From Trichocoleus desertorum ATA4-8-CV12 (GTDB lineage Bacteria > Cyanobacteriota > Cyanobacteriia > FACHB-46): DNA of 51,798 nucleotides. Below the pieces are notes generated by a model that had not been told where the DNA came from, did not search any database, and saw only the letters and a list, made by a program, of their open reading frames with translations. Positions within the stretch are counted from its first letter, which is position 1, and each line of letters opens with the position of its first letter. The position numbers and the translations under genes are program-made. The stretch covers positions 1-51,798 of the forward strand of contig JAHHIL010000041.1 in the NCBI GenBank assembly GCA_019358975.1, given 5' to 3'. Below are positions 18,521 to 51,546 of this stretch, in pieces.

Positions 18521-19816
18521 GTGTCTGCTGTTGATATTTTGATTCTCTCCAATGGGCCTGGAGAGCTATCCACCTGGGTGAAACCTGTGGTTAGGGCATT
18601 GAGAGCGCAACTTGGGGATGATCGCGCCCAAGTTCGGATTTCGGTTGTTTTATCTCCTTGCCCTAATGCTAGCGGCCAAGAAGCCGCGATCGCGCAAAGC
18701 TACCGAGAAGTTGACCGAGTCCAATCGGCTGAGCATTTCGCTGCGTTTTTGCTATCTGGTAAAACTGTAGACGCTTGGGAATGGCGCGATCGCGGGGTGG
18801 TTTTATTTCTAGGCGGCGATCAGTTTTTTCCAGTTGTGATTGGTAGGCGGCTTGGGTACAGAACCGTGGTCTACGCCGAGTGGGATGCTCGTTGGCTACG
18901 CTGGATCGATCGCTTTGGAGTCATGAAACCGGAAATTGCTGCTCAAGCTCCCCCCGCCCAAGCCCACAAATTTACCGTCGTGGGTGACTTAATGGCAGAG
19001 GCAGGCACCTTCGATCGACCTAAGAACTATTTAACAGATGCAAGCACAAGTAAAAACACAGAACTGATTGGCTTATTACCAGGGTCTAAGCCAGCCAAAC
19101 TAGCTCAAGGCGTTCCGTTAACCTTAGCGATCGCGGAGCAAATCCATGCTGTCCGCCCCCAAACCCGCTTCGTCATTCCGGTGGCACCTAGCCTCGATCT
19201 ACCAACTCTGGCCCGATTCGCTAATCCTCAGCACAATCCAATTTCGCAATTATTTGGTGGTGTAGAGGCTCACTTAGTGATGCCCGGAGACAGCCAACGT
19301 CCTTACCTAAAAACAACAGCAGGTTTGCAGGTAGAGCTTTGGACGCATTTTCCTGCTTATGATCTACTTTCACAGTGCCAACTTTGTCTCACGACAGTCG
19401 GCGCAAACACTGCCGAGTTGGGTTCCCTGGCTGTTCCCATGATTGTGCTAGTGCCCATGCAACAAGCAGATGCGATGCGGGCTTGGGGTGGCATTCCTGG
19501 CTTATTGGTCAACTTGCCTGGTGTAGGCAGCAATTTCGCCAAACTGATCAATTGGTGGTTTCTCCGTAAACCACGCCTGCTCGCTTGGCCCAATATCTGG
19601 GCGCAGGAGCAGATTGTGCCAGAAAAAGTGGGAATTGTGCAGCCGCAAGAAGTTGCAGATCTAGCCCTAGACTTGCTGGAGCATCCTGAGCAATTGCAAC
19701 AAATCCGCGATCGCCTCCGCAGTGTTCGAGGCCAACCCGGAGCCGCCACAAAACTCAGTCAGATCGTCACTGAAGAACTAGGCTTCAACTCCTCTCCCCT
19801 TTCCCCTCACTCCTAA
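18521..19816 (+). CDS. Lipid-A-disaccharide-synthase-related glycosyltransferase
   Basis: 431 residues with a GT-B-like fold distantly related to LpxB. The N-terminus DILILSNGPGELSTWVKPVVRAL and the C-terminal nucleotide-sugar domain (LLSQCQLCLTTVGANTAELG, PMIVLVPMQ) match the conserved cyanobacterial family annotated as lipid-A-disaccharide synthase-related. It probably transfers a sugar to a lipid or envelope precursor, but donor and acceptor are unknown. The start is GTG 18521, behind an AGGAG-type site at about 18505. The last residues, SSPLSPHS, are encoded by the beginning of the pyrimidine repeat tract, so the natural C-terminus may have been replaced. Confidence 0.82.
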   Translation: MSAVDILILSNGPGELSTWVKPVVRALRAQLGDDRAQVRISVVLSPCPNASGQEAAIAQSYREVDRVQSAEHFAAFLLSGKTVDAWEWRDRGVVLFLGGDQFFPVVIGRRLGYRTVVYAEWDARWLRWIDRFGVMKPEIAAQAPPAQAHKFTVVGDLMAEAGTFDRPKNYLTDASTSKNTELIGLLPGSKPAKLAQGVPLTLAIAEQIHAVRPQTRFVIPVAPSLDLPTLARFANPQHNPISQLFGGVEAHLVMPGDSQRPYLKTTAGLQVELWTHFPAYDLLSQCQLCLTTVGANTAELGSLAVPMIVLVPMQQADAMRAWGGIPGLLVNLPGVGSNFAKLINWWFLRKPRLLAWPNIWAQEQIVPEKVGIVQPQEVADLALDLLEHPEQLQQIRDRLRSVRGQPGAATKLSQIVTEELGFNSSPLSPHS

Positions 19817-19927
19817 CTCCTCTCCCCTAACTCCTCTCCCCTAACTCCTCATCCCTCATCCCTCATCCCTCCTCCCTCATCCCTCATCCTTCATCCCTCA
19901 TCCCTCCTCCTTCATCCTTTCTTTTTT
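19788..19927 (+). repeat. Pyrimidine-rich short tandem repeat tract
   Basis: About 140 bases of nearly pure C/T (plus A) on the plus strand. First come copies of a 14-mer of the type CCCTAACTCCTCTC, then about ten imperfect copies of the heptamer TCATCCC. Heptameric short tandem repeats of this kind are common between genes in filamentous cyanobacteria. The tract starts inside the 3' end of the glycosyltransferase gene and ends just before the stop of the converging membrane-protein gene. Confidence 0.9.
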
Positions 19928-33153: not shown

Positions 33154-34719
33154 ATGGCCATTGCTTTTTGGAGACGTTTTATCGTCCAGCCTCTGTGTCT
33201 ATTAGCGCTAAGTACGATCTGGGAAGGATTTCAACAGCAACCTGTCTTTGCAACAACCGACTCAATTTGCCCAACTCAGATAGGTCCTGCGATCGCCCAG
33301 ATCCTCCAAGCAGAGGTTTCTCCCACTACAACCCCTCAAGCGGGAGAACGCTCATCTACTAATCGTTCCGGCTTTGCTCGCGCCCGTTGGGGAATCTTGA
33401 TTCAGACTCTCGCTTCTAAAAATGCCAAGGGTGAAACTCTGTATGCTCAAGATGGCGATCGCTATTTTTTGCCCGCTTCTAATGCCAAACTTTTGACTAC
33501 TGCGGCTGCTCTACACAAACTAAGCCCTCAATTTCGCATCCGCACCTCCGTATACCGAGATACTGGTACAAAACCAGTGAAATTACGGCTAATGGGACGA
33601 GGCGATCCGAGCTTGACAGATCAAGAGCTGGGGTTGCTGGCACAGCAATTACGCAGCCAGGGAATTCAATCTATTTCTCAGCTATTAGGTGACGAATCTT
33701 ACTTCCGTGGCCCCGTACCTAATCCCCAATGGGAATGGGGGGATATTCAGGCGGGATATGGCGCTCCTGTCAACAGCTTGATTTTGAATCAGAATGCGAT
33801 CGGGCTTCAGTTGTGGCCCCAAGCGGTCGGTCAACCGTTGCGAGTGCAATGGGATGATCCAGCAGAGGCGAGGCGTTGGCGTATCGACAACCAATCGGTA
33901 ACTGTCGGTGGAACAGAAGATGAGTTTGTAGAAGTAGGACGAGACTTGAGCCAGCCACTATTGCGAGTGCAAGGGCAACTGCGGGTAGGGGGCTTACCGG
34001 AACCTGTAGCAGTGGCGATCGCAGACCCCAGCCAGAACTTTTTGCGCCGATTCCAGCGGGCTTTAGCAGCTCAACAAATTCGCGTCGGGAAAACTTTAGT
34101 CACGCACACACCTACTCCCACCGCAGACCCAGAAATTGCCGCGATCGAATCTCCCCCGTTATCAACCCTGCTGATTGAAACCAATCGAGAGAGCAACAAC
34201 CTTTACGCCGAGGCAATTTTGCGGTCTTTAGGAGCGCAAGCGGAAGCCTCTCTGAAACAAGCTGCTGATTTATCCACCGCTGAGCAAGGTTTAGCAGTCG
34301 TCCACCAAACGCTGACCGAATTGGGGGTGGAACCAGGTAGTTACGTTTTGGCAGACGGGTCGGGGTTGTCTCGTCATAACTTAGTTAGCCCGGCGGCTTT
34401 AGTGCAGACCTTGCAAGCGATCGCTCAGTTACCGGAAGCTGAGATTTATCGTGCCTCGTTGCCAGTGGCAGGTGTGAGTGGCACCTTACAAGGTCGCTTT
34501 CGAGACACTCCAGCCCAAGGACGACTCCAAGCTAAAACAGGCACACTCTCAGGCATTTCGGCTTTGTCGGGCTACCTCAACCCACCTAACTACCAGCCTT
34601 TGGTGTTTAGCATTATTGTCAATCAATCGCCTCAACCCACCTCAACCCTCCGGCAAACCATTGATGAGATTGCGCTAACCCTAACTAAATTGCGTTCCTG
34701 TAGCAGATCTCGCTTTTAG
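33154..34719 (+). CDS. dacB: D-alanyl-D-alanine carboxypeptidase/endopeptidase (PBP4, peptidase S13)
   Basis: 521 residues, exported: a hydrophobic N-terminus (IVQPLCLLALSTIW) acts as signal or anchor. The penicillin-binding active site is complete: SNAK (S109 nucleophile, K112), SNN in NRESNNLYAEAI and KTG in LQAKTGTLSGIS. The insert between the first two motifs is typical of class C PBP4. The enzyme trims or opens peptidoglycan cross-links. Its last four bases overlap the end of the converging fraE gene. Confidence 0.93.
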   Translation: MAIAFWRRFIVQPLCLLALSTIWEGFQQQPVFATTDSICPTQIGPAIAQILQAEVSPTTTPQAGERSSTNRSGFARARWGILIQTLASKNAKGETLYAQDGDRYFLPASNAKLLTTAAALHKLSPQFRIRTSVYRDTGTKPVKLRLMGRGDPSLTDQELGLLAQQLRSQGIQSISQLLGDESYFRGPVPNPQWEWGDIQAGYGAPVNSLILNQNAIGLQLWPQAVGQPLRVQWDDPAEARRWRIDNQSVTVGGTEDEFVEVGRDLSQPLLRVQGQLRVGGLPEPVAVAIADPSQNFLRRFQRALAAQQIRVGKTLVTHTPTPTADPEIAAIESPPLSTLLIETNRESNNLYAEAILRSLGAQAEASLKQAADLSTAEQGLAVVHQTLTELGVEPGSYVLADGSGLSRHNLVSPAALVQTLQAIAQLPEAEIYRASLPVAGVSGTLQGRFRDTPAQGRLQAKTGTLSGISALSGYLNPPNYQPLVFSIIVNQSPQPTSTLRQTIDEIALTLTKLRSCSRSRF

Positions 34720-35489
34720 AATTGCCGTCTGGAGAAAATTAAGATCGCGATCGCCAGCAGTAACACTGTGTAAGCTAGTCCATACCCAGCATTTAACAAC
34801 AGTTCTCTCGGAGCTGCCAAAACTCCATAGACTGCTTCATTCTTGAGATCGAGCCGAGCCAAATCAGGTAGAAATAGATAGATGCCTTTAGTGAGACGAC
34901 GCAAATCTGGGCTGGAAGCCAAGTTGCCCAGTGTCACCAAGTCGCGGCTGAAATGCCCAACTAGATAAACGGCGAAGGTGAGTAGAGTCGCTAATAGTGA
35001 ACTGGTAAACACCCCGAACAAAATTGCCGCTGCCGTGAGTAGAGATAACTCTAGAAATAAGTAGAGGACTGCTACCAAAATGCTAACCAGGGGGTACTGG
35101 ATCTGCGCCCAAGTCAGCACCGCGAGGTAAATGGCGGTCATGAGCGACAGGAGCACAGCTAAAACTGCTGATAAACCCAGGTGTTTACCAATGACGAATT
35201 CAGCGCGGCTAATCGGTTTAGCAATTAGCACTAAGACAGTCCGTTTTTCAATTTCTTTGTTGATGAGACCAGTCCCTACAAACACAGTAATAATTAAACT
35301 CAGAACTGTAATTCCAGCTAAACCTACATCGAGCAAAATTTTGTTTTCTGTGCCCGCCGCCACTTCTGGCAACAGTCGCAGCGCCATAATCAGCAGTAAG
35401 GCAAAGAAGCCAATTAAATAGAGGATGCGATCGCGGATGACTTCCCAAAATACATTGGTGGCGATCGTAAAGATTCTGCCGAGATTCAC
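34716..35489 (-). CDS. fraE: ABC-2 type permease, filament integrity protein FraE
   Basis: 257 residues with six membrane helices of the ABC-2 permease type, starting NLGRIFTIATNVFWEVIRDRILYLIGFF and carrying GLINKEIEKRTVLVLIAKPISRAEF. It is the third gene of a minus-strand cluster fraC-fraD-fraE, the same order as in Anabaena, where all three are needed for filament integrity and normal cell-cell molecular exchange. No ATPase gene is adjacent, so its partner must be encoded elsewhere. The start is GTG 35489. Confidence 0.88.
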   Translation of the reverse strand: MNLGRIFTIATNVFWEVIRDRILYLIGFFALLLIMALRLLPEVAAGTENKILLDVGLAGITVLSLIITVFVGTGLINKEIEKRTVLVLIAKPISRAEFVIGKHLGLSAVLAVLLSLMTAIYLAVLTWAQIQYPLVSILVAVLYLFLELSLLTAAAILFGVFTSSLLATLLTFAVYLVGHFSRDLVTLGNLASSPDLRRLTKGIYLFLPDLARLDLKNEAVYGVLAAPRELLLNAGYGLAYTVLLLAIAILIFSRRQF

Positions 35490-35627
35490 CTTCTCACTCC
35501 TTTAGCAATTCCTGATGACGCGCTTAACACTATTTCTGGGGTTGTTTCTAGAGTTATTTTTGATTTAGGCCAAGTTCTTAAGCTTTCGCAAGGCGTTGAC
35601 CTGCAAAGCAAACCCCTTGCACAGACC

Positions 35628-36770
35628 CTAGGATTGCAAGGTTGGCCCCGGTTGAACCAAAGTAGGCCGACTAATAGATCCGCATTCAATCTTACTAGTG
35701 CTTGTCGTTTGCGGGAGCGCTTCAGGGGCCGCAGGGGTTGGAACCGTAGGCGTTGGAACCGTAGGCGTTGGAATTGCAGGAGTAACTGGGCCAGCAAAAA
35801 CTTGACCATTGCTACGCGCTAGAGGGCTACTGTCCGATGTTGCGTCTGGGGATGCAAGCGGGGCAGAGACAGCAGCTTCAGGAGCGGGTGAAGCCGAGGC
35901 AGGTGGGTTCTCTCCCTGGGTGACACGGCAAGTTTTGGTGAGATAGTGACTGGCGAGGTCAGAACTCGGCCCTTGCCAGAGAGCCAGCATTTGCAAAGTG
36001 TAATCTGGCTGATCTGGCAAGATTTGAGCTTGCAACTGCCATAAAGCATTTTCTTCCGAGGGAGGCAGTTGTTGCATCACGGCATTCTCAAACTCAGTTG
36101 GCTGTTGTTTGAGTGTTAGCAGCCACCGCTCTACTTCTGGCCAGGAACGCGGTTCTAGTTCCGCTTTTAGCGTAGCCTCTGCTTGATTGAGGATGATCAC
36201 ACCTGTGGGGGCTTGAGTCGTTTGCACCCCTAGTCGCACTACAAAGTTACTTTGATTAAAATCATTTGCTAACAAACTGGGATAAATCTCTAACCAGCCT
36301 TGAATCACGAAGTAAAGTTGAAACCAACAGCTAATAATTAAATTAGTTAAAAACAGAATAACGAGCCTTTGACGACCTGCTTGAGTCGGATATTTGAATC
36401 GGGGGCCTGATTGAATAAATTCTCCTAAAGAAGCGATCGCGGCTGAAATCAAGGGCCAACTCACAAACAATAGCGAAGGCCGTTCATCTAGCCACTCCCC
36501 AAACAGGAAAATACTAACTAATATACCTGTAATCCAAGGCCCTAAAGATAGCCCTCCCACCATGATTGGGTTTTCAGTGGTGAACCAACCCACACCAAAA
36601 ATCAAAAAAATCCAACCGCAAGTTGCTAATAAACTTCGAATTAAATCACCTGCCAGGGCTGCCATCAAACAAGAAAAAATACTTAGCAAAATTAAAGTCT
36701 GCCAAGAGAATGCTTTTGGTGGCAGTAATAACTTTTGCAGCGTATCAAGAATTTCTTTGACTTTATCCAT
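35628..36770 (-). CDS. fraD: Septal junction protein FraD (DUF5357) with Pro-rich tail
   Basis: 380 residues. Five membrane helices fill the first half (FSWQTLILLSIFSCLMAAL, SLLATCGWIFLIFGVGWF, GPWITGILVSIFLFGEW, a fourth near LLFVSWPLISAAIASLG and LVILFLTNLIISCWFQLYFVI). A soluble domain of about 130 residues follows, then a tail rich in Pro, Ala, Ser and Thr with tandem PTPTV units. In Anabaena FraD forms the plug of septal junctions. ATG 36770 overlaps the fraC stop by eight bases (translational coupling); the frame extends to GTG 36797. Residues 290-380 look disordered and are encoded partly by 15-bp tandem repeats. Confidence 0.88.
   Translation of the reverse strand: MDKVKEILDTLQKLLLPPKAFSWQTLILLSIFSCLMAALAGDLIRSLLATCGWIFLIFGVGWFTTENPIMVGGLSLGPWITGILVSIFLFGEWLDERPSLLFVSWPLISAAIASLGEFIQSGPRFKYPTQAGRQRLVILFLTNLIISCWFQLYFVIQGWLEIYPSLLANDFNQSNFVVRLGVQTTQAPTGVIILNQAEATLKAELEPRSWPEVERWLLTLKQQPTEFENAVMQQLPPSEENALWQLQAQILPDQPDYTLQMLALWQGPSSDLASHYLTKTCRVTQGENPPASASPAPEAAVSAPLASPDATSDSSPLARSNGQVFAGPVTPAIPTPTVPTPTVPTPAAPEALPQTTSTSKIECGSISRPTLVQPGPTLQS
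35737..35781 (-). repeat. 15-bp tandem repeat inside fraD
   Basis: Two identical units GTTGGAACCGTAGGC (35737-35751, 35752-35766) and a third degenerate one (35767-35781), as read on the plus strand. They encode the repeated PTPTV of the FraD tail and are a likely site of length variation. Confidence 0.9.
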
Positions 36771-37308
36771 TCGCTTGAGAGCTGAGGTCGAAGGCACGCG
36801 CTAATAGAATCAACAAGATTAGACTGTAGCTGCAAGCATTGGCTAACAAAATAGTTGTAGCTCTATTGGTGGCAGCTAGACCCAGTTCTCGCCGCCTTAA
36901 CTTATCACGGGCGCGATAGACTTTTGGAGTGACTACCTCTTCTTTTTGATTTCTTTGTAGCAATAGCTGTAATAACTCTAGTCCCTGTAGCTCTGCAATA
37001 AATGTGCCGAAAAAAGTAAATAAGCCGAGCATGATCAATAAAGTATTGGTATTGGTGGAACGAGCATTAAATAGGACGTAGCTAATTAAAGGGCCTTTCC
37101 AAGCCAGAGGTAAAGCGGGTTCTAGGGTAAAGAAAAATAACCAACCAATGGCTGTAGAGAATAAATTTACCGAAGCGGAGTATTCCAAGCTAATTCTACG
37201 AGTCAGGTTTAAGCGCTCTTTGAATATCATTGACTCGATCGCGATCGCTATTAATAAAAAGAGCAGTTGAAACAAGATAGCCCGCAATGGCAAAACAAAC
37301 GAAAACAC
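36763..37308 (-). CDS. fraC: Filament integrity protein FraC
   Basis: 181 residues with three membrane segments, beginning MFSFVLPLRAILFQLLFLLIAIAIE and ending in a membrane helix NACSYSLILLILLARAF. The opening LPLRA...FQLLFLL and the following SLEYSASVNLFSTAIGWLFFF agree closely with what I know of FraC from heterocyst-forming cyanobacteria. FraC is required with FraD and FraE to keep filaments together and to form septal nanopores. The start is GTG 37308, with a very strong GGAGGAGGT ribosome site about six bases upstream. It is the first gene of the operon, divergent from the CobO-like gene. Confidence 0.9.
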   Translation of the reverse strand: MFSFVLPLRAILFQLLFLLIAIAIESMIFKERLNLTRRISLEYSASVNLFSTAIGWLFFFTLEPALPLAWKGPLISYVLFNARSTNTNTLLIMLGLFTFFGTFIAELQGLELLQLLLQRNQKEEVVTPKVYRARDKLRRRELGLAATNRATTILLANACSYSLILLILLARAFDLSSQANG

Positions 37309-37444: not shown

Positions 37445-38578
37445 ATGGCAAGAACTGGCGTTGGCATTCGAACCGCTCAAGCACGTTCTGAGCGGCTAGA
37501 GGGGCAAATTCATGTCTACGATGGAGCGGGCAAAGGCAAGTCCCAAGCAGCGCTGGGCGTAGTGTTGCGCTCGATTGGTTTGGGTATCAACAGTTCGGTG
37601 CAAACTCGTGTCCTCCTCTTGCGTTTTCTCAAAGGCCCCGGTCGCATGTACGAAGAAGATGCCGCGATCGAAGCTCTACAACGAGGCTTTCCCCACCTGA
37701 TTGACCAAGTTCGGACTGGGCGAGCTGAGCATTTCGGCTTGGATGACATCACTCGCTTCGATCGCCTAGAAGCCCAGCGAGGGTGGGATGTAGCTAAAGG
37801 CGCGATCGCCTCTGGTCTCTACTCAGTCGTCGTGCTGGATGAACTCAACCCAGTGATTGACTTGGGTTTGTTGCCAGTGGATGAAGTGGTCAACACGCTG
37901 AAGCACAAGCCAGAGCACATGGAGATCATTGCCACAGGGCGAGCGGCTCCCCCAGCTTTGATTGACATCGCCAACCTGCACTCAGAAATGAAACCTCACC
38001 ACCATCCCACTGCGGCTGAGCAAGGGATTGATGGCATTGAGATCTACACCGGAGCTGGCAAAGGCAAGTCCACCAGCGCTTTAGGGAAAGCCTTGCAAGC
38101 GATTGGTAAAGGCATTAGTCAAGACAAATCTCATCGCGTCTTGATTATCCAATGGTTGAAGGGTGGCTCTGGCTATACCGAAGATGCCGCGATCGCCGCG
38201 TTGCAGCAAAGCTACCCTAACTTAGTCGATCATCAGCGTTGCGGTCGAGATGCGATTGTGTGGCGGGGCCAGCAGCAAGAGCTTGACTATGTGGAGGCCG
38301 AGCGAGGTTGGGAGATCGCTAGAGCTGCGATCGCTTCTGGTCTATACAAAACTATTATTCTGGATGAACTGAATCCGACTGTAGATCTGGAGTTGCTGCC
38401 AGAAGAACCGATTGTACAAGCGCTGTTGCGTAAACCTCGCGACACCGAAATCATTATTACAGGGCGTTGCAATAATCCTCCAGCCTACTTCGATCTCGCT
38501 AGTGTACATTCCGAAATGATTTGCCACAAACACTATGCCGAGAAGGGAGTGGATCTGAAGCGAGGCGTAGATTTCTAA
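37445..38578 (+). CDS. Tandem CobO/BtuR-type corrinoid adenosyltransferase-like protein
   Basis: 377 residues formed by two complete CobO-type P-loop domains. Domain one has DGAGKGKS (26-33), FLKGPGRMYEEDAA and VLDELNPVIDLG. Domain two has TGAGKGKS (203-210), WLKGGSGYTEDAA and ILDELNPTVDLE. Both keep the Walker A and DELN motifs, so both may bind ATP. Single-domain CobO adds the 5'-deoxyadenosyl group to cob(I)alamin or cobyrinic acid diamide. The stop codon is directly next to that of the converging gene, with no spacer. Confidence 0.88.
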   Translation: MARTGVGIRTAQARSERLEGQIHVYDGAGKGKSQAALGVVLRSIGLGINSSVQTRVLLLRFLKGPGRMYEEDAAIEALQRGFPHLIDQVRTGRAEHFGLDDITRFDRLEAQRGWDVAKGAIASGLYSVVVLDELNPVIDLGLLPVDEVVNTLKHKPEHMEIIATGRAAPPALIDIANLHSEMKPHHHPTAAEQGIDGIEIYTGAGKGKSTSALGKALQAIGKGISQDKSHRVLIIQWLKGGSGYTEDAAIAALQQSYPNLVDHQRCGRDAIVWRGQQQELDYVEAERGWEIARAAIASGLYKTIILDELNPTVDLELLPEEPIVQALLRKPRDTEIIITGRCNNPPAYFDLASVHSEMICHKHYAEKGVDLKRGVDF

Positions 38579-39943
38579 CTAAAACTCAGCAGTAGGAGCG
38601 ATCGCAAACTCAGCCTGAGAACTGGTCTCTAGGGGCACATTGCCACGAAGCTGCGAGAAAATTTGATAAGCCTCTAAATTCCGCTGCTGATAACTGTTGG
38701 GAGTCTCAGAGTCAACTTTAACCAAGTTGTATTCTACATCTTCAGCATAAACAGTGAAGATGACGCTAAAGACCTCCAAAAAGTGGATGACCCATTGGCA
38801 ATCTTCTTCGTTTAAATTCTCGTAGTATCTAATTAAATCAGCAATGCAAGATTCCAAATGAGTTCGAGAATTCTTACAAATTAAAATTATTTTGAGCAGC
38901 AAAATGACCAACGTAATTGGGCTCTTCTGCATCACAAACAAAGCGAATAGAGAAGTCGGTTCTTTACGATTTTCAGTGGTCAAGCATTCAATAACTCGAT
39001 TACAAGTTCTGAGCAGTAAAGCATCATCTATCTCTCGCTCATCATAAATTTCATACAAGGACTCTAAGCTATCAAACAAAGATTTTTTCACCGATGCTGC
39101 TAAATCTTGGTTACTCATCGAGTAAATTAAGTATTTCTTCAAACCCCGTTTAAATTCGTAATAAGACAGCTCTTGCGTTTGCTTTAGAAAAATATTGGCT
39201 AGATTCGTATAACTAAACACACATTTCTTGGCAACCAATCTCTTGATTAATAGAAGTACTTCATCCCCCAATAAAGTTGGGTTCTTCAATGGATTTTTTT
39301 GAACCACACTAGATTGAGAGCGGGCAACATATAAAGCCAGATCTCGTTTATACTGCTCTTTTAATTGTCTGGACAACACTCTGGCTGTTTCTCGCTGCTC
39401 AGCTGAGTTTGTAGTATTCACAAACTGAGAGACTAACAAATAAGACGTATAGCGACGGCTCCAAGGCTTTTCTGGTTGAAAGGTACAAGCAGAAACGAAT
39501 AATTCTAGCTCTTGATAATCACTGCTTCCAATGAACTTCTCTAGCCAATAATTGAGGCGAGTTAGGATTAGAGAAGCTGTTTTGCGATTAAACTTAATCT
39601 TGGGAAATAAGCCAACTAACTGTTGAATCGCCTGATAGTTTTTGCTGGTATTCCAGTTGTTAATTAGAATGTAGCAAGAGCGTTTAAGTGTGTTGCGAAA
39701 CTCCTGCTCATCATTGGACACAATAATTTGATATAGTGCTTGGTTCACTTCAGAACTAGTCATATTAACTGAGTGGACAAACAAGCTTTCAAACTCCGTT
39801 AAAGCAACCTCTGGAGAACATTGCTTGACTGTATTGATCAAGAACTCATAGATGGTTTCCTGAGCGTGCTCAATTCTCTTTGTAGAGGGCTGAAAATGAG
39901 GTTCAGGATGGTAATGCTTGACTGGAGGCTCTTTGATTAACAT
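38579..39943 (-). CDS. Large mostly helical protein, function unknown
   Basis: 454 residues, without signal peptide or membrane segments apart from a moderately hydrophobic helix at about 340-352 (PITLVILLLKIILI). Composition is rich in Leu, Glu, Lys, Asn and Ser, with repeated helix-like segments, suggesting an alpha-solenoid or scaffold. The coding style is more AT-rich than the flanking genes and HIP1 octamers are nearly absent. No motif or family was recognised. Confidence 0.7.
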   Translation of the reverse strand: MLIKEPPVKHYHPEPHFQPSTKRIEHAQETIYEFLINTVKQCSPEVALTEFESLFVHSVNMTSSEVNQALYQIIVSNDEQEFRNTLKRSCYILINNWNTSKNYQAIQQLVGLFPKIKFNRKTASLILTRLNYWLEKFIGSSDYQELELFVSACTFQPEKPWSRRYTSYLLVSQFVNTTNSAEQRETARVLSRQLKEQYKRDLALYVARSQSSVVQKNPLKNPTLLGDEVLLLIKRLVAKKCVFSYTNLANIFLKQTQELSYYEFKRGLKKYLIYSMSNQDLAASVKKSLFDSLESLYEIYDEREIDDALLLRTCNRVIECLTTENRKEPTSLFALFVMQKSPITLVILLLKIILICKNSRTHLESCIADLIRYYENLNEEDCQWVIHFLEVFSVIFTVYAEDVEYNLVKVDSETPNSYQQRNLEAYQIFSQLRGNVPLETSSQAEFAIAPTAEF

Positions 39944-48816: not shown

Positions 48817-51546
48817 TTAACTGTATCGCCAAACTCTAATGGTTTGATCGGCGCTACTGCTAACAAATGTATTGCTATCTGGTGCAAAGGCGATCGCACA
48901 AATCTTACCTGTATGTTCGCTCAATGTCGCCAGCAATTCTCTCGACTCTAAATCCCAAACTTTCAACGTGCAATCTTCACCACCGCTGATTAAAAACTGA
49001 CCATTGGGGTTAATGGCAACGGCTGATACTTGGCCTTTATGCAACGCCAGACTGGAGCTAACACCTGGGCCTAAATCCCAAAGCTTGATGGTCCCGTCTG
49101 CGCCTCCACTGACTATCGTTTTACCGTCGGGGCTAAATGCCATTGAGCAAACTTTGCTGGCGTGAGCAGGAAGCGAGTTGAAGGCAGTTCTGGTATCTAA
49201 ATTCCAGAGGTGGATCGTGCCGTTTTGGTCGCCACTAGCCAGGATGTCTTTATCAGAGTGAGGGCTGAAAACAACTGAGGTGATGAAGCCGTAACCACTG
49301 AGGGTTTGCAATAATCTGCCGCTTCTGATGTCCCACACTTTAATGCTGCGATCGGCACTGCCACTGGCGAGCCATTGCCCATCCGGGTTAACGGCGATCG
49401 CATTTACAGCGGTGGTATGTCCGGTGAGGGTGCGGAGTAATTCGCCTGTCTTCAGGTTCCAGACTTTAATTGTGTTGCTGCTACCACTGCTAAACAACAG
49501 CTTGCCGCCGGGATGCATCGCTAGAGCATAAATTGAGCCAGAATTTTTGGGCTGGGAAAGGGTTTGTACCCACTCTCCTTTCAAGGCCCAAACTTGTATT
49601 TTGTTGTCACTGCCCCCACTGACTAAGGTTTGGCTATTGGGGCTGATCGCTAAAGCATTGGCTCCAGTCTCAAAGATTACTCGACATTTCCAAGTGCCAA
49701 GTTTAGGAGGTAATGCCGCGATCGCTACTGGTACATTTGTCACCTCAACATCAATGGTGGTAACTGGGAAGTTTTCTCGCCCCACAACCGCGATCGCCCG
49801 CTGCAAATACTCCTCATAGTCCTCATAAATTTGAGGAATCAGTGAGGAGGTTCCAGGCTCAAAAATTAGATCGTCAATGATGGCATCTGCCTTTTCATTA
49901 ATCGCATCCACCAGTGTTTGCGGCATGGTGGGTACGGCATCAGCAATCTGTCGCAGTTCTTCTGGGTCTTGTCGCAGAATCGCTTCTAATGCCCAATACT
50001 CATAGTCTGAAAGTTGATTAATCAGTTCGTGCCATTGGGGAGCTAGGAGTGGTTCCTCATCCTCAGCCTCAGATGACTCAGTCGTAGGAGCTGGGAGTTC
50101 CAGCGGTAGCGCGATCGCCGGAATTGTAGATTCGACCGTTACCAGTTCCCCTGGTTGCGGTGCCCGACTCGCAATCTGGGTTAGCAGCGTTTCTAGAGAG
50201 GTTTCTAGCTCCCGCCTTTGGGTTGTAATCGTTGTGAGTAAGGCTTGAATCTCCGTTTTCAGGGGTTGTAGATCGATCGCATCCACTAACCCAGCAATTT
50301 CCGTCTTCAGCGGTTGCAGATCGAGGGTTTGGATTTCCGATTGCAATGGCTCCAGGTCAATCGCGGCAATTATAGTTTGGATTTCTGATTGCAACGGCTG
50401 GGTATCAATCGTAGAAATTAAGGCTTCAATTTCTGATTTCAGGGCTTGGACATCGATCGCAGCCAGCAATTCTTGAATCTGCGATTTCAACAAAGGTAGG
50501 TTGATCGCAGCGACGAGAGCTTGAATCTCAGCTCTGATTGGCTCTACATCGATCGCATCCACTAATCCTGCAATTTCTGACTTCAGGGGTTGCAGATCAA
50601 TTGTTTGAATTTCTGACCTTAACGGTTCCAGGTCGATCGCGGCAATGAGAGTTTGGAGTTCCGCCTGCAACGACTGTATATCAATCGTAGAAATCAATGA
50701 TTCAATGTCCGATTTCACCGCTTGCACATCGATCGCAGCGACTAGGGATTGAATCTCTGCTTTCAACTGCGGCACGTTGATGACTGACACCAGTTCTTGA
50801 ATGTCGGCTCTAAGTGGCTCTAAGTCGATCGCTGCTAGTTCTGCTAGAGACTCATGTAGGGTTTGCCGCGATCGCTCCAGCCTTTCGATTTGCGCTTGTA
50901 AGTCCTGGGTTTCTGCGGCTAATAGCTGCTTGCTCGTTTGCAGGGCAGCTACATCACTGTGGAGCCGAAGTTTTTGCGCGGTAAACTCAGCAATTTGAGT
51001 TTTGAGTTGACTCAGTTCTTGCTGGTGCTGACCCGCCTCCACCGCTAAACTTTGCCGCGCATCAGTTGTGGTGGCGATCGCTTGTTGCATTTCTGCTTCT
51101 TGCGCTGCTAAACTCTGGACCCGATCTTGCAACTGTTGGAAGCCAAGTTCTAGTTGCTGCTTACGACCTTCTAAAGTAGCGATCGCTTGACCTAATTCTC
51201 GATCTTGCTGTTGCTGCTCGGCGATGCGAGTTTGAAGCTGATCAAGGTCTGCTTGCAAGAAGCTCAAACTGGTTTCGGCTTGCTGCTTGTCTGCGGTTGC
51301 GGTTAAGAGAGCTTGCTGGATTTCTGCTTGCCGTTGCTCGTAAGCTTGCAACTGTCCCGCGATCGCCTGCCCTTTGAGTTGGGCTTGCCGTTTCTGGCGA
51401 TCGTCGATGGCTACTGCTCCTGCGTAGGCACCTGGCGCGATTAATCCTGTGAGGAGCGATCGCTGCAAGTTGCGCTCAGCCAGAAAGCTCAAGCCAAAGC
51501 TAAGGCCGAAAGCGGCTGAACCGATGACAATCCGATTGACTAACAT
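48817..51546 (-). CDS. Membrane/coiled-coil protein with 16-residue repeats, TerB_C-like domain and WD40 propeller
   Basis: 909 residues in five parts. Residues 1-47 hold two hydrophobic segments (IVIGSAAFGLSFGLSFLA, LLTGLIAPGAYAGAVAI), probably a membrane anchor. Residues 50-238 are a Gln-rich coiled coil. Residues 240-440 are thirteen repeats of about 16 residues with consensus IDLQPLKSEIQALVAA. Residues 503-585 resemble the TerB C-terminal domain (WHELINQLSDYEYWALEAIL, AINEKADAIIDDLIFE, IYEDYEEYLQRAI). Residues 620-909 are seven WD40 blades (SADRSIKVWDI, GADGTIKLWDL and so on). The protein heads the operon with the BrxD-like ATPase. The start is ATG 51546. The TerB_C call is by eye and is the least certain part. 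Confidence 0.82.
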   Translation of the reverse strand: MLVNRIVIGSAAFGLSFGLSFLAERNLQRSLLTGLIAPGAYAGAVAIDDRQKRQAQLKGQAIAGQLQAYEQRQAEIQQALLTATADKQQAETSLSFLQADLDQLQTRIAEQQQQDRELGQAIATLEGRKQQLELGFQQLQDRVQSLAAQEAEMQQAIATTTDARQSLAVEAGQHQQELSQLKTQIAEFTAQKLRLHSDVAALQTSKQLLAAETQDLQAQIERLERSRQTLHESLAELAAIDLEPLRADIQELVSVINVPQLKAEIQSLVAAIDVQAVKSDIESLISTIDIQSLQAELQTLIAAIDLEPLRSEIQTIDLQPLKSEIAGLVDAIDVEPIRAEIQALVAAINLPLLKSQIQELLAAIDVQALKSEIEALISTIDTQPLQSEIQTIIAAIDLEPLQSEIQTLDLQPLKTEIAGLVDAIDLQPLKTEIQALLTTITTQRRELETSLETLLTQIASRAPQPGELVTVESTIPAIALPLELPAPTTESSEAEDEEPLLAPQWHELINQLSDYEYWALEAILRQDPEELRQIADAVPTMPQTLVDAINEKADAIIDDLIFEPGTSSLIPQIYEDYEEYLQRAIAVVGRENFPVTTIDVEVTNVPVAIAALPPKLGTWKCRVIFETGANALAISPNSQTLVSGGSDNKIQVWALKGEWVQTLSQPKNSGSIYALAMHPGGKLLFSSGSSNTIKVWNLKTGELLRTLTGHTTAVNAIAVNPDGQWLASGSADRSIKVWDIRSGRLLQTLSGYGFITSVVFSPHSDKDILASGDQNGTIHLWNLDTRTAFNSLPAHASKVCSMAFSPDGKTIVSGGADGTIKLWDLGPGVSSSLALHKGQVSAVAINPNGQFLISGGEDCTLKVWDLESRELLATLSEHTGKICAIAFAPDSNTFVSSSADQTIRVWRYS
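50278..50829 (-). repeat. 276-bp tandem super-repeat coding for 2 x 92 residues
   Basis: Block A (50554-50829, residues 240-331) and block B (50278-50553, residues 332-423) each encode six units of 16, 16, 16, 16, 12 and 16 residues in the same order. A further single unit follows (residues 424-439). The short 12-residue unit is at the fifth position of both blocks, showing that one block duplicated as a whole. Confidence 0.88.

Follow-up and report, generated by a model that had tools for sequence, protein, structure and literature searches.

The window analysed here is a stretch of 51,798 nucleotides from Trichocoleus desertorum ATA4-8-CV12 (contig JAHHIL010000041.1), and it carries a complete fraC-fraD-fraE cluster on its minus strand. 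The fra operon and its role are already known and the cluster is ordinary here; the useful lead is a pair of cysteines in FraD, C281 and C363, which flank a linker of 81 residues. The best explanation, to which we assign a probability of about 0.72, is that the locus encodes a fra septal junction set in which a disulfide between C281 and C363 closes a loop of FraD, and that this loop is a drifting, tolerated spacer. In this view FraC, FraD and FraE would be the septal junction proteins of a cyanobacterium that is probably filamentous and probably forms no heterocysts. FraD would sit in the inner membrane at the septum with a small alpha/beta domain in the periplasm (its septal location and the periplasmic side of its C-terminus are taken from published papers). 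After a flexible linker the last beta strand of this domain would fold back beside the preceding strand and C281 would face C363; the two would most likely form a disulfide, which would make the linker a closed loop. Closure would be strongly selected, the sequence and length of the loop much less so, and slippage of tandem repeats would lengthen and shorten it by presumably neutral steps. The gene and its parts are:

35628..36770, minus strand: fraD, 380 aa counted from the ATG; PF17310 at 320.9 bits (cut-off 25)
36267..36770, minus strand: membrane part of FraD, approximately residues 1-168; AlphaFold2 helices over residues 2-168
35928..36266, minus strand: periplasmic domain of FraD up to and including C281 (codon 35930-35928); predicted helices 189-233 and strands 244-251, 257-265 and 275-287; cysteine in 150/150 intact domains
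35685..35927, minus strand: linker of FraD, 81 residues (282-362), rich in Pro, Ala, Thr and Ser; no predicted secondary structure over residues 288-356
35729..35773, minus strand: 15-bp tandem array within the linker, 3.0 copies, coding for PTPTV PTPTV PTPAA; Tandem Repeats Finder (TRF) score 76
35631..35684, minus strand: C-terminal end of FraD, C363 (codon 35684-35682) and 17 further residues; C363 ends the predicted strand 357-363; cysteine in 150/150 intact domains

Conserved cysteine pair

Of the 388 genomes drawn from the class, 190 had a match to PF17310, the family of FraD; none of the 14 control genomes did. We examined 160 of these 190 matches in two lots. The first comprised the window and 109 other loci; the second comprised 50 loci, 30 picked among the weaker matches and 20 others. 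In the second lot 8 FraD were without the periplasmic domain, 2 (L215 and L237) were cut by contig ends and 40 were intact. Here and below, L numbers denote FraD loci, G numbers genomes and f numbers families of the sample. The host's order is represented by three genomes of a single genus, G000 (the host), G001 and G002. For the alignments we used the window together with 55 of the 80 named loci; the other 25 were set aside on visual inspection to reduce the number of close relatives, and they include L129 with its aberrant-looking C-terminal end. A search of the genome contigs with a single protein gave no match.

Both cysteines that flank the linker were found in all 150 FraD with an intact periplasmic domain, that is in 110/110 of the first lot and in 40/40 intact proteins of the second. 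In an alignment of 30 diverse FraD they account for two of only ten invariant columns.

We then compared the position of the cysteines in two predicted structures. The AlphaFold2 model of the window FraD, built with the 55 named relatives, reached a mean predicted local distance difference test (pLDDT) score of 82.7. It places C281 in the strand 275-287 and C363 in the strand 357-363, with a disordered stretch between them: the block pLDDT is 47-56 over residues 291-350, and the mean is 94 over residues 361-370. In a separate model of the periplasmic domain of a Nostoc FraD, which has a linker of 21 residues, the strands are 117-131 (with C123) and 137-145 (with C145). For both hairpins, adding the positions of the two cysteines gives the same total as adding those of the two strand ends on the linker side (281 + 363 = 287 + 357 = 644 and 123 + 145 = 131 + 137 = 268), and equal sums fit directly opposed residues in an antiparallel pair. 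Thus in the models C281 and C363 apparently lie on neighbouring strands, opposite each other. Because the cysteines are conserved, are modelled on neighbouring strands and belong to a C-terminus that is periplasmic, the linker is probably a periplasmic loop closed by a disulfide.

The topology used here comes from PMC6463045, which describes five transmembrane segments for Anabaena FraD and a periplasmic location for its residues 173-343; the window model, with its N-terminal membrane helices 2-168 followed by an alpha/beta domain, has the same layout. A peptide ending in RKSC served to raise antibodies against the periplasmic part of Nostoc FraD (PMC9722847).

A known fold for the periplasmic domain was not supported. 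With Foldseek neither the window model nor the Nostoc model had a match at E 0.001 or below, and in a second look at the fold the best Z scores were 6.6 and 6.7 with no single family ahead. The pilins 1qve (Z 5.2) and ComZ, 6qvi (Z 6.0) fell inside the common range. Among the sequences of solved structures there was no FraD relative at E 1.

Among the matches listed for the open-access literature we found no statement on the cysteine pair of FraD or on a variable loop between the cysteines, a weak negative, and nothing that explains how the periplasmic half of FraD functions. Where cysteines are mentioned alongside FraD, the passages concern alkylation for mass spectrometry and proteases. We regard the pair as a useful lead and as a structural trait of FraD that merits direct testing. 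Cryo-tomography has placed two proteins in septal junctions, FraD and SepN (PMC10653889). Cysteines that flank a segment free to vary in length, in every intact FraD examined, give a direct handle on the need for a closed loop and on redox sensing.

Loop length and tandem repeats

The linker of the window FraD consists of 21% P, 17% A, 14% T and 12% S. The preliminary description had reported PTPTV units encoded by 15-bp tandem repeats. The 15-bp array is indeed there; its units span only about 15 residues, with the third copy decayed to PTPAA. None of 1000 codon shuffles of the linker reached a TRF score of 76, and one did among 1000 permutations in which the linker's codons changed places between positions of the same amino acid, so the array is beyond chance. 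The host has three copies of the unit, G001 two and G002 one, and the last copy is decayed in each. The array of G001 is exactly 15 bp shorter than that of the host, which corresponds to one unit between two species of the genus.

The suggestion that this region varies in length held up well beyond the genus, as linkers were of no fixed length in other FraD. They measured 12-81 residues in the first 110 FraD (median 28) and 12-84 in the next 40, hence 12-84 across the 150 proteins. The 81 residues of the window are matched by one congener and surpassed by one genome of another family (84 residues, L228). For family f32, which we call Nostocaceae-like because its proteins have the top PF17310 scores, the 22 linkers were 21-29 residues long with a median of 21; the other 88 of the 110 FraD showed 12-81 residues and a median of 30. 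That long linkers are unique to the host's genus was rejected, given 84 residues in L228, 68 in L046, 65 in L226 and 62 in L222.

To compare the rates of change we counted synonymous and nonsynonymous codon differences. Between G000 and G001 the ratio was 44:6 before the linker and 7:14 within it, with 5 additional gapped codons (Fisher p 9e-6). Between G000 and G002 it was 84:16 before the linker and 9:20 within it, with 22 gapped codons (Fisher p 1e-7). The 18 codons from C363 onwards carried one silent and one replacing difference relative to G001, and four silent and no replacing differences relative to G002. In these coding sequences replacements and indels build up in the linker far more quickly than in the remainder of FraD.

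Tandem arrays were also concentrated in the linker. At a TRF score of at least 40 they were found in the linker of 6/110 genes (10.1 kb in total) vs elsewhere in 6/110 (106.7 kb), with p 2e-4; the linker makes up less than a tenth of the fraD sequence. At a score of at least 70 there were five arrays in linkers vs one elsewhere in the 110 genes. The six linker arrays differ in their units. These arrays and the changes in length fit slippage in a spacer with fixed ends, and drift of a tolerated spacer explains the variation of the loop best.

Alternative explanations

Several observations weigh against a disulfide-closed loop that drifts freely. In one of the 110 FraD of the first lot (L109) the second cysteine is present but lies outside the shared alignment column, and for L226 and L236 the pair lies past the profile match and was assigned by pattern. 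The examination covered 160 of the 190 class matches. The predicted opposition of the cysteines is read from strand ends given by DSSP, and the cysteines, both invariant, show no covariation that would bear on their pairing. The comparison within the genus covers three genomes only, and two of the six repeat-bearing linkers come from this genus. The linkers of G000 and G002 are equally long (81 residues) although 22 codons are gapped between them; this arrival at one length by different routes is at most a hint of a possible constraint on length. Finally, eight FraD (L227 and L229-L235; from G051, G007, G368 and five genomes of family f20) stop after the membrane part, in frames of 188-217 aa, and have neither periplasmic domain nor linker nor terminal cysteine pair. 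In all eight fraC adjoins, and a fraE frame was seen in 6/8 within the stretch examined. Since these short FraD keep their fraC neighbour, the periplasmic domain appears dispensable in some lineages; such natural short forms could show the purpose of the domain.

The preliminary description had read the end of FraD as a free C-terminal tail of about 90 low-complexity residues. A free tail built from repeats would have its length tuned at the septum and would perhaps touch the peptidoglycan; this would agree with the Pro/Ala/Thr/Ser-rich composition, with the difference in repeat number between species and with the other long or repeat-built linkers (68 residues in L046, 84 in L228 and 65 in L226). 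We consider it very unlikely. The low complexity is confined to residues 282-362, between the conserved cysteines, and the final 18 residues, from C363 onwards, are conserved, with no amino-acid change relative to G002 and one relative to G001. A cysteine-bearing end follows the linker in 150/150 intact FraD, and it forms a strand in both models, so the segment would be held at both ends. Furthermore, linkers with a median of 21 residues suffice in the 22 Nostocaceae-like FraD. We rejected the free tail on the conserved strand and cysteine that follow the linker in the alignments and in both models, a correction that spares work misdirected at a FraD tail.

The two cysteines might also be used differently. 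They could link separate molecules, either two FraD or FraD and another protein such as SepN, or they could hold a cofactor, and invariance alone cannot separate intramolecular from intermolecular use. PMC9722847 describes septal junction caps with five-fold symmetry and an interaction of SepN with FraD, both of which would suit such bonds. Both models nevertheless place the two cysteines within a single chain, on strands with ends in matching register, which makes bonds between molecules or a cofactor unlikely. A redox lock, where oxidation closes the loop and reduction frees the C-terminal strand and thus helps to open or shut the junction, strikes us as a long shot. A conserved cysteine pair in a periplasmic domain is what it would need, and the caps close under oxidative stress among other stresses (same paper). 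It reports that closure is also set off when the proton motive force is lost, so a redox step need not be involved; a structural cystine explains the pair more simply, and we found no redox data on FraD among the literature matches listed, which were mostly unrelated. Just as speculative is an extension in which the pair acts as a redox-sensitive latch: breaking it would free the strand together with the long loop and alter gating, and a loop length reset by slippage would tune the reach of the freed strand. We thus prefer the disulfide-closed loop as a tolerated spacer.

The fra locus

The three genes lie on the minus strand at the coordinates given in the preliminary description, and its report of a complete cluster as in Anabaena was borne out by the Pfam and NCBIfam families, the gene order and the coordinates. 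Apart from fraD these genes are:

36763..37308, minus strand: fraC, 181 aa, GTG start; PF24301 at 2.1e-57 and 194.4 bits (cut-off 27), NF045624 equivalog at 194.1 bits (cut-off 100)
34716..35489, minus strand: fraE, 257 aa ABC-2-type permease, GTG start; PF12679 at 43.6 bits (cut-off 27.2)

FraC passed both curated cut-offs (Pfam PF24301 and NCBIfam NF045624). FraD passed the gathering score of PF17310 (DUF5357) and covered profile positions 5-294 of 322. Its score for the NCBIfam subfamily NF037953 was 271.2 bits, which is under the cut-off of 400 bits. When NF037953 was applied to ten named FraD, all three labelled Nostocales or a Nostocales genus passed (506-529 bits) and none of the seven others did (205-277 bits). 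The window protein is thus FraD by family, predicted structure and gene order, yet stands outside the NF037953 subfamily. FraE was identified as an ABC-2-type permease straight downstream of fraD; no FraE-specific model matched in the two libraries scanned (Pfam and NCBIfam).

The 8-base overlap of fraC and fraD noted before was found again at 36763-36770, where the ATG of fraD and the stop of fraC both fall within ATGGATAA. fraE begins 138 nt past the fraD stop. Of the 110 loci including the window, some of which are cut by contig ends, 105 have a FraC frame at most 600 nt upstream of fraD, 98 have a FraE frame at most 600 nt downstream of it and 93 have both. A scan for promoters and terminators at the locus gave sites no more numerous than in shuffled sequence; we call the cluster a putative operon on the basis of spacing and conserved order.

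Comparison with known systems

The fraC-fraD-fraE genes of Anabaena sp. PCC 7120 (alr2392-alr2393-alr2394, PMC6463045) are alike in gene order, membrane-protein content, FraC and FraD families and the ABC-2-type FraE. The linker differs, with 81 residues in the window FraD vs the 21-29 of the 22 Nostocaceae-like proteins. The window FraD is 34, 36 and 34% identical to the f32 rows L005, L024 and L025.

Long linkers also occur in other genera, namely in L046/G303 (68 aa), L097/G102 (58 aa), L226/G029 (65 aa), L222/G042 (62 aa) and L228/G005 (84 aa), and there the linker likewise lies between the two cysteines. The linkers of L046 and L097 contain tandem repeats of 12 and 15 bp, as the window linker contains repeats. 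Because the units differ between the window and the other genera, the repeats arose separately. Unlike the window protein, L046 has a long extension past the second cysteine. The short FraD (families f20, f6, f28 and f34) share with the window the membrane part next to fraC and differ in what follows it.

Host

The host genome (6.06 Mb, 90 contigs) is 99.98% complete. No protein passed the NifH (nitrogenase iron protein) cut-off of 394.35 bits; the best match, at 221.5 bits, is presumably a subunit of protochlorophyllide reductase. A HetR gene is present. The genome also encodes a protein of 625 aa whose N-terminal stretches are charged and rich in Gln and which has a Pro/Ser-rich linker and two EamA permease domains; it was found through these domains, and its coiled coil was judged by eye. 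We call this protein SepJ-like, by architecture only, because its layout matches that described for SepJ in PMC12096826. SepJ was not found among the frames of at least 200 aa around hetR in the host. With NifH below the cut-off and HetR and a SepJ-like protein present, the host is probably a filament former without heterocysts.

The preliminary description had taken the operon to mark the host as filamentous. Aphanothece is a unicellular or colonial genus, and 1/80 named FraD loci is labelled Aphanothece, a metagenome-assembled genome label that may be wrong; the operon alone is therefore no proof of a filamentous host. HetR, the SepJ-like protein and the published distribution of the genes all point to filaments: FraD is described as conserved only in filamentous cyanobacteria (PMC9722847), and fraC and fraD as missing from the pleurocapsalean strains surveyed (PMC8472315).

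Neighbouring genes and other repeats

Divergent from fraC, at 37445-38578 on the plus strand, we observed a gene whose single protein product is a fusion of two corrinoid adenosyltransferase (CobA_CobO_BtuR) domains. A divergent gene of this kind upstream of fraC is common to the window and to 56/80 named fra loci, many of them Nostoc; in these loci (approximately 4 kb per side) the relative is encoded on the strand opposite to fraD and aligns over more than 250 aa. Because of this frequency the pairing of the adenosyltransferase with fraC looks old. A 454-aa open frame at 38579-39943 on the minus strand adjoins the adenosyltransferase gene and showed no Pfam match at E 0.01.

On the other side, 33154-34719 on the plus strand encodes a D-Ala-D-Ala carboxypeptidase (Peptidase_S13), which overlaps the end of fraE tail-to-tail by 4 bases. 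A close relative of it was found near the operon in both congeners (L112 and L113) and in none of the stretches around the 80 named loci.

Two further repeats were noticed in the window. At 50243-50832 a 276-bp unit is repeated in tandem (2.1 copies) and itself contains a 48-bp repeat; this long repeat possibly belongs to a repeat protein gene. At 19787-19917 there are 131 bp of CT-rich short repeats, consisting of the 7-bp CCTCATC and its relatives.

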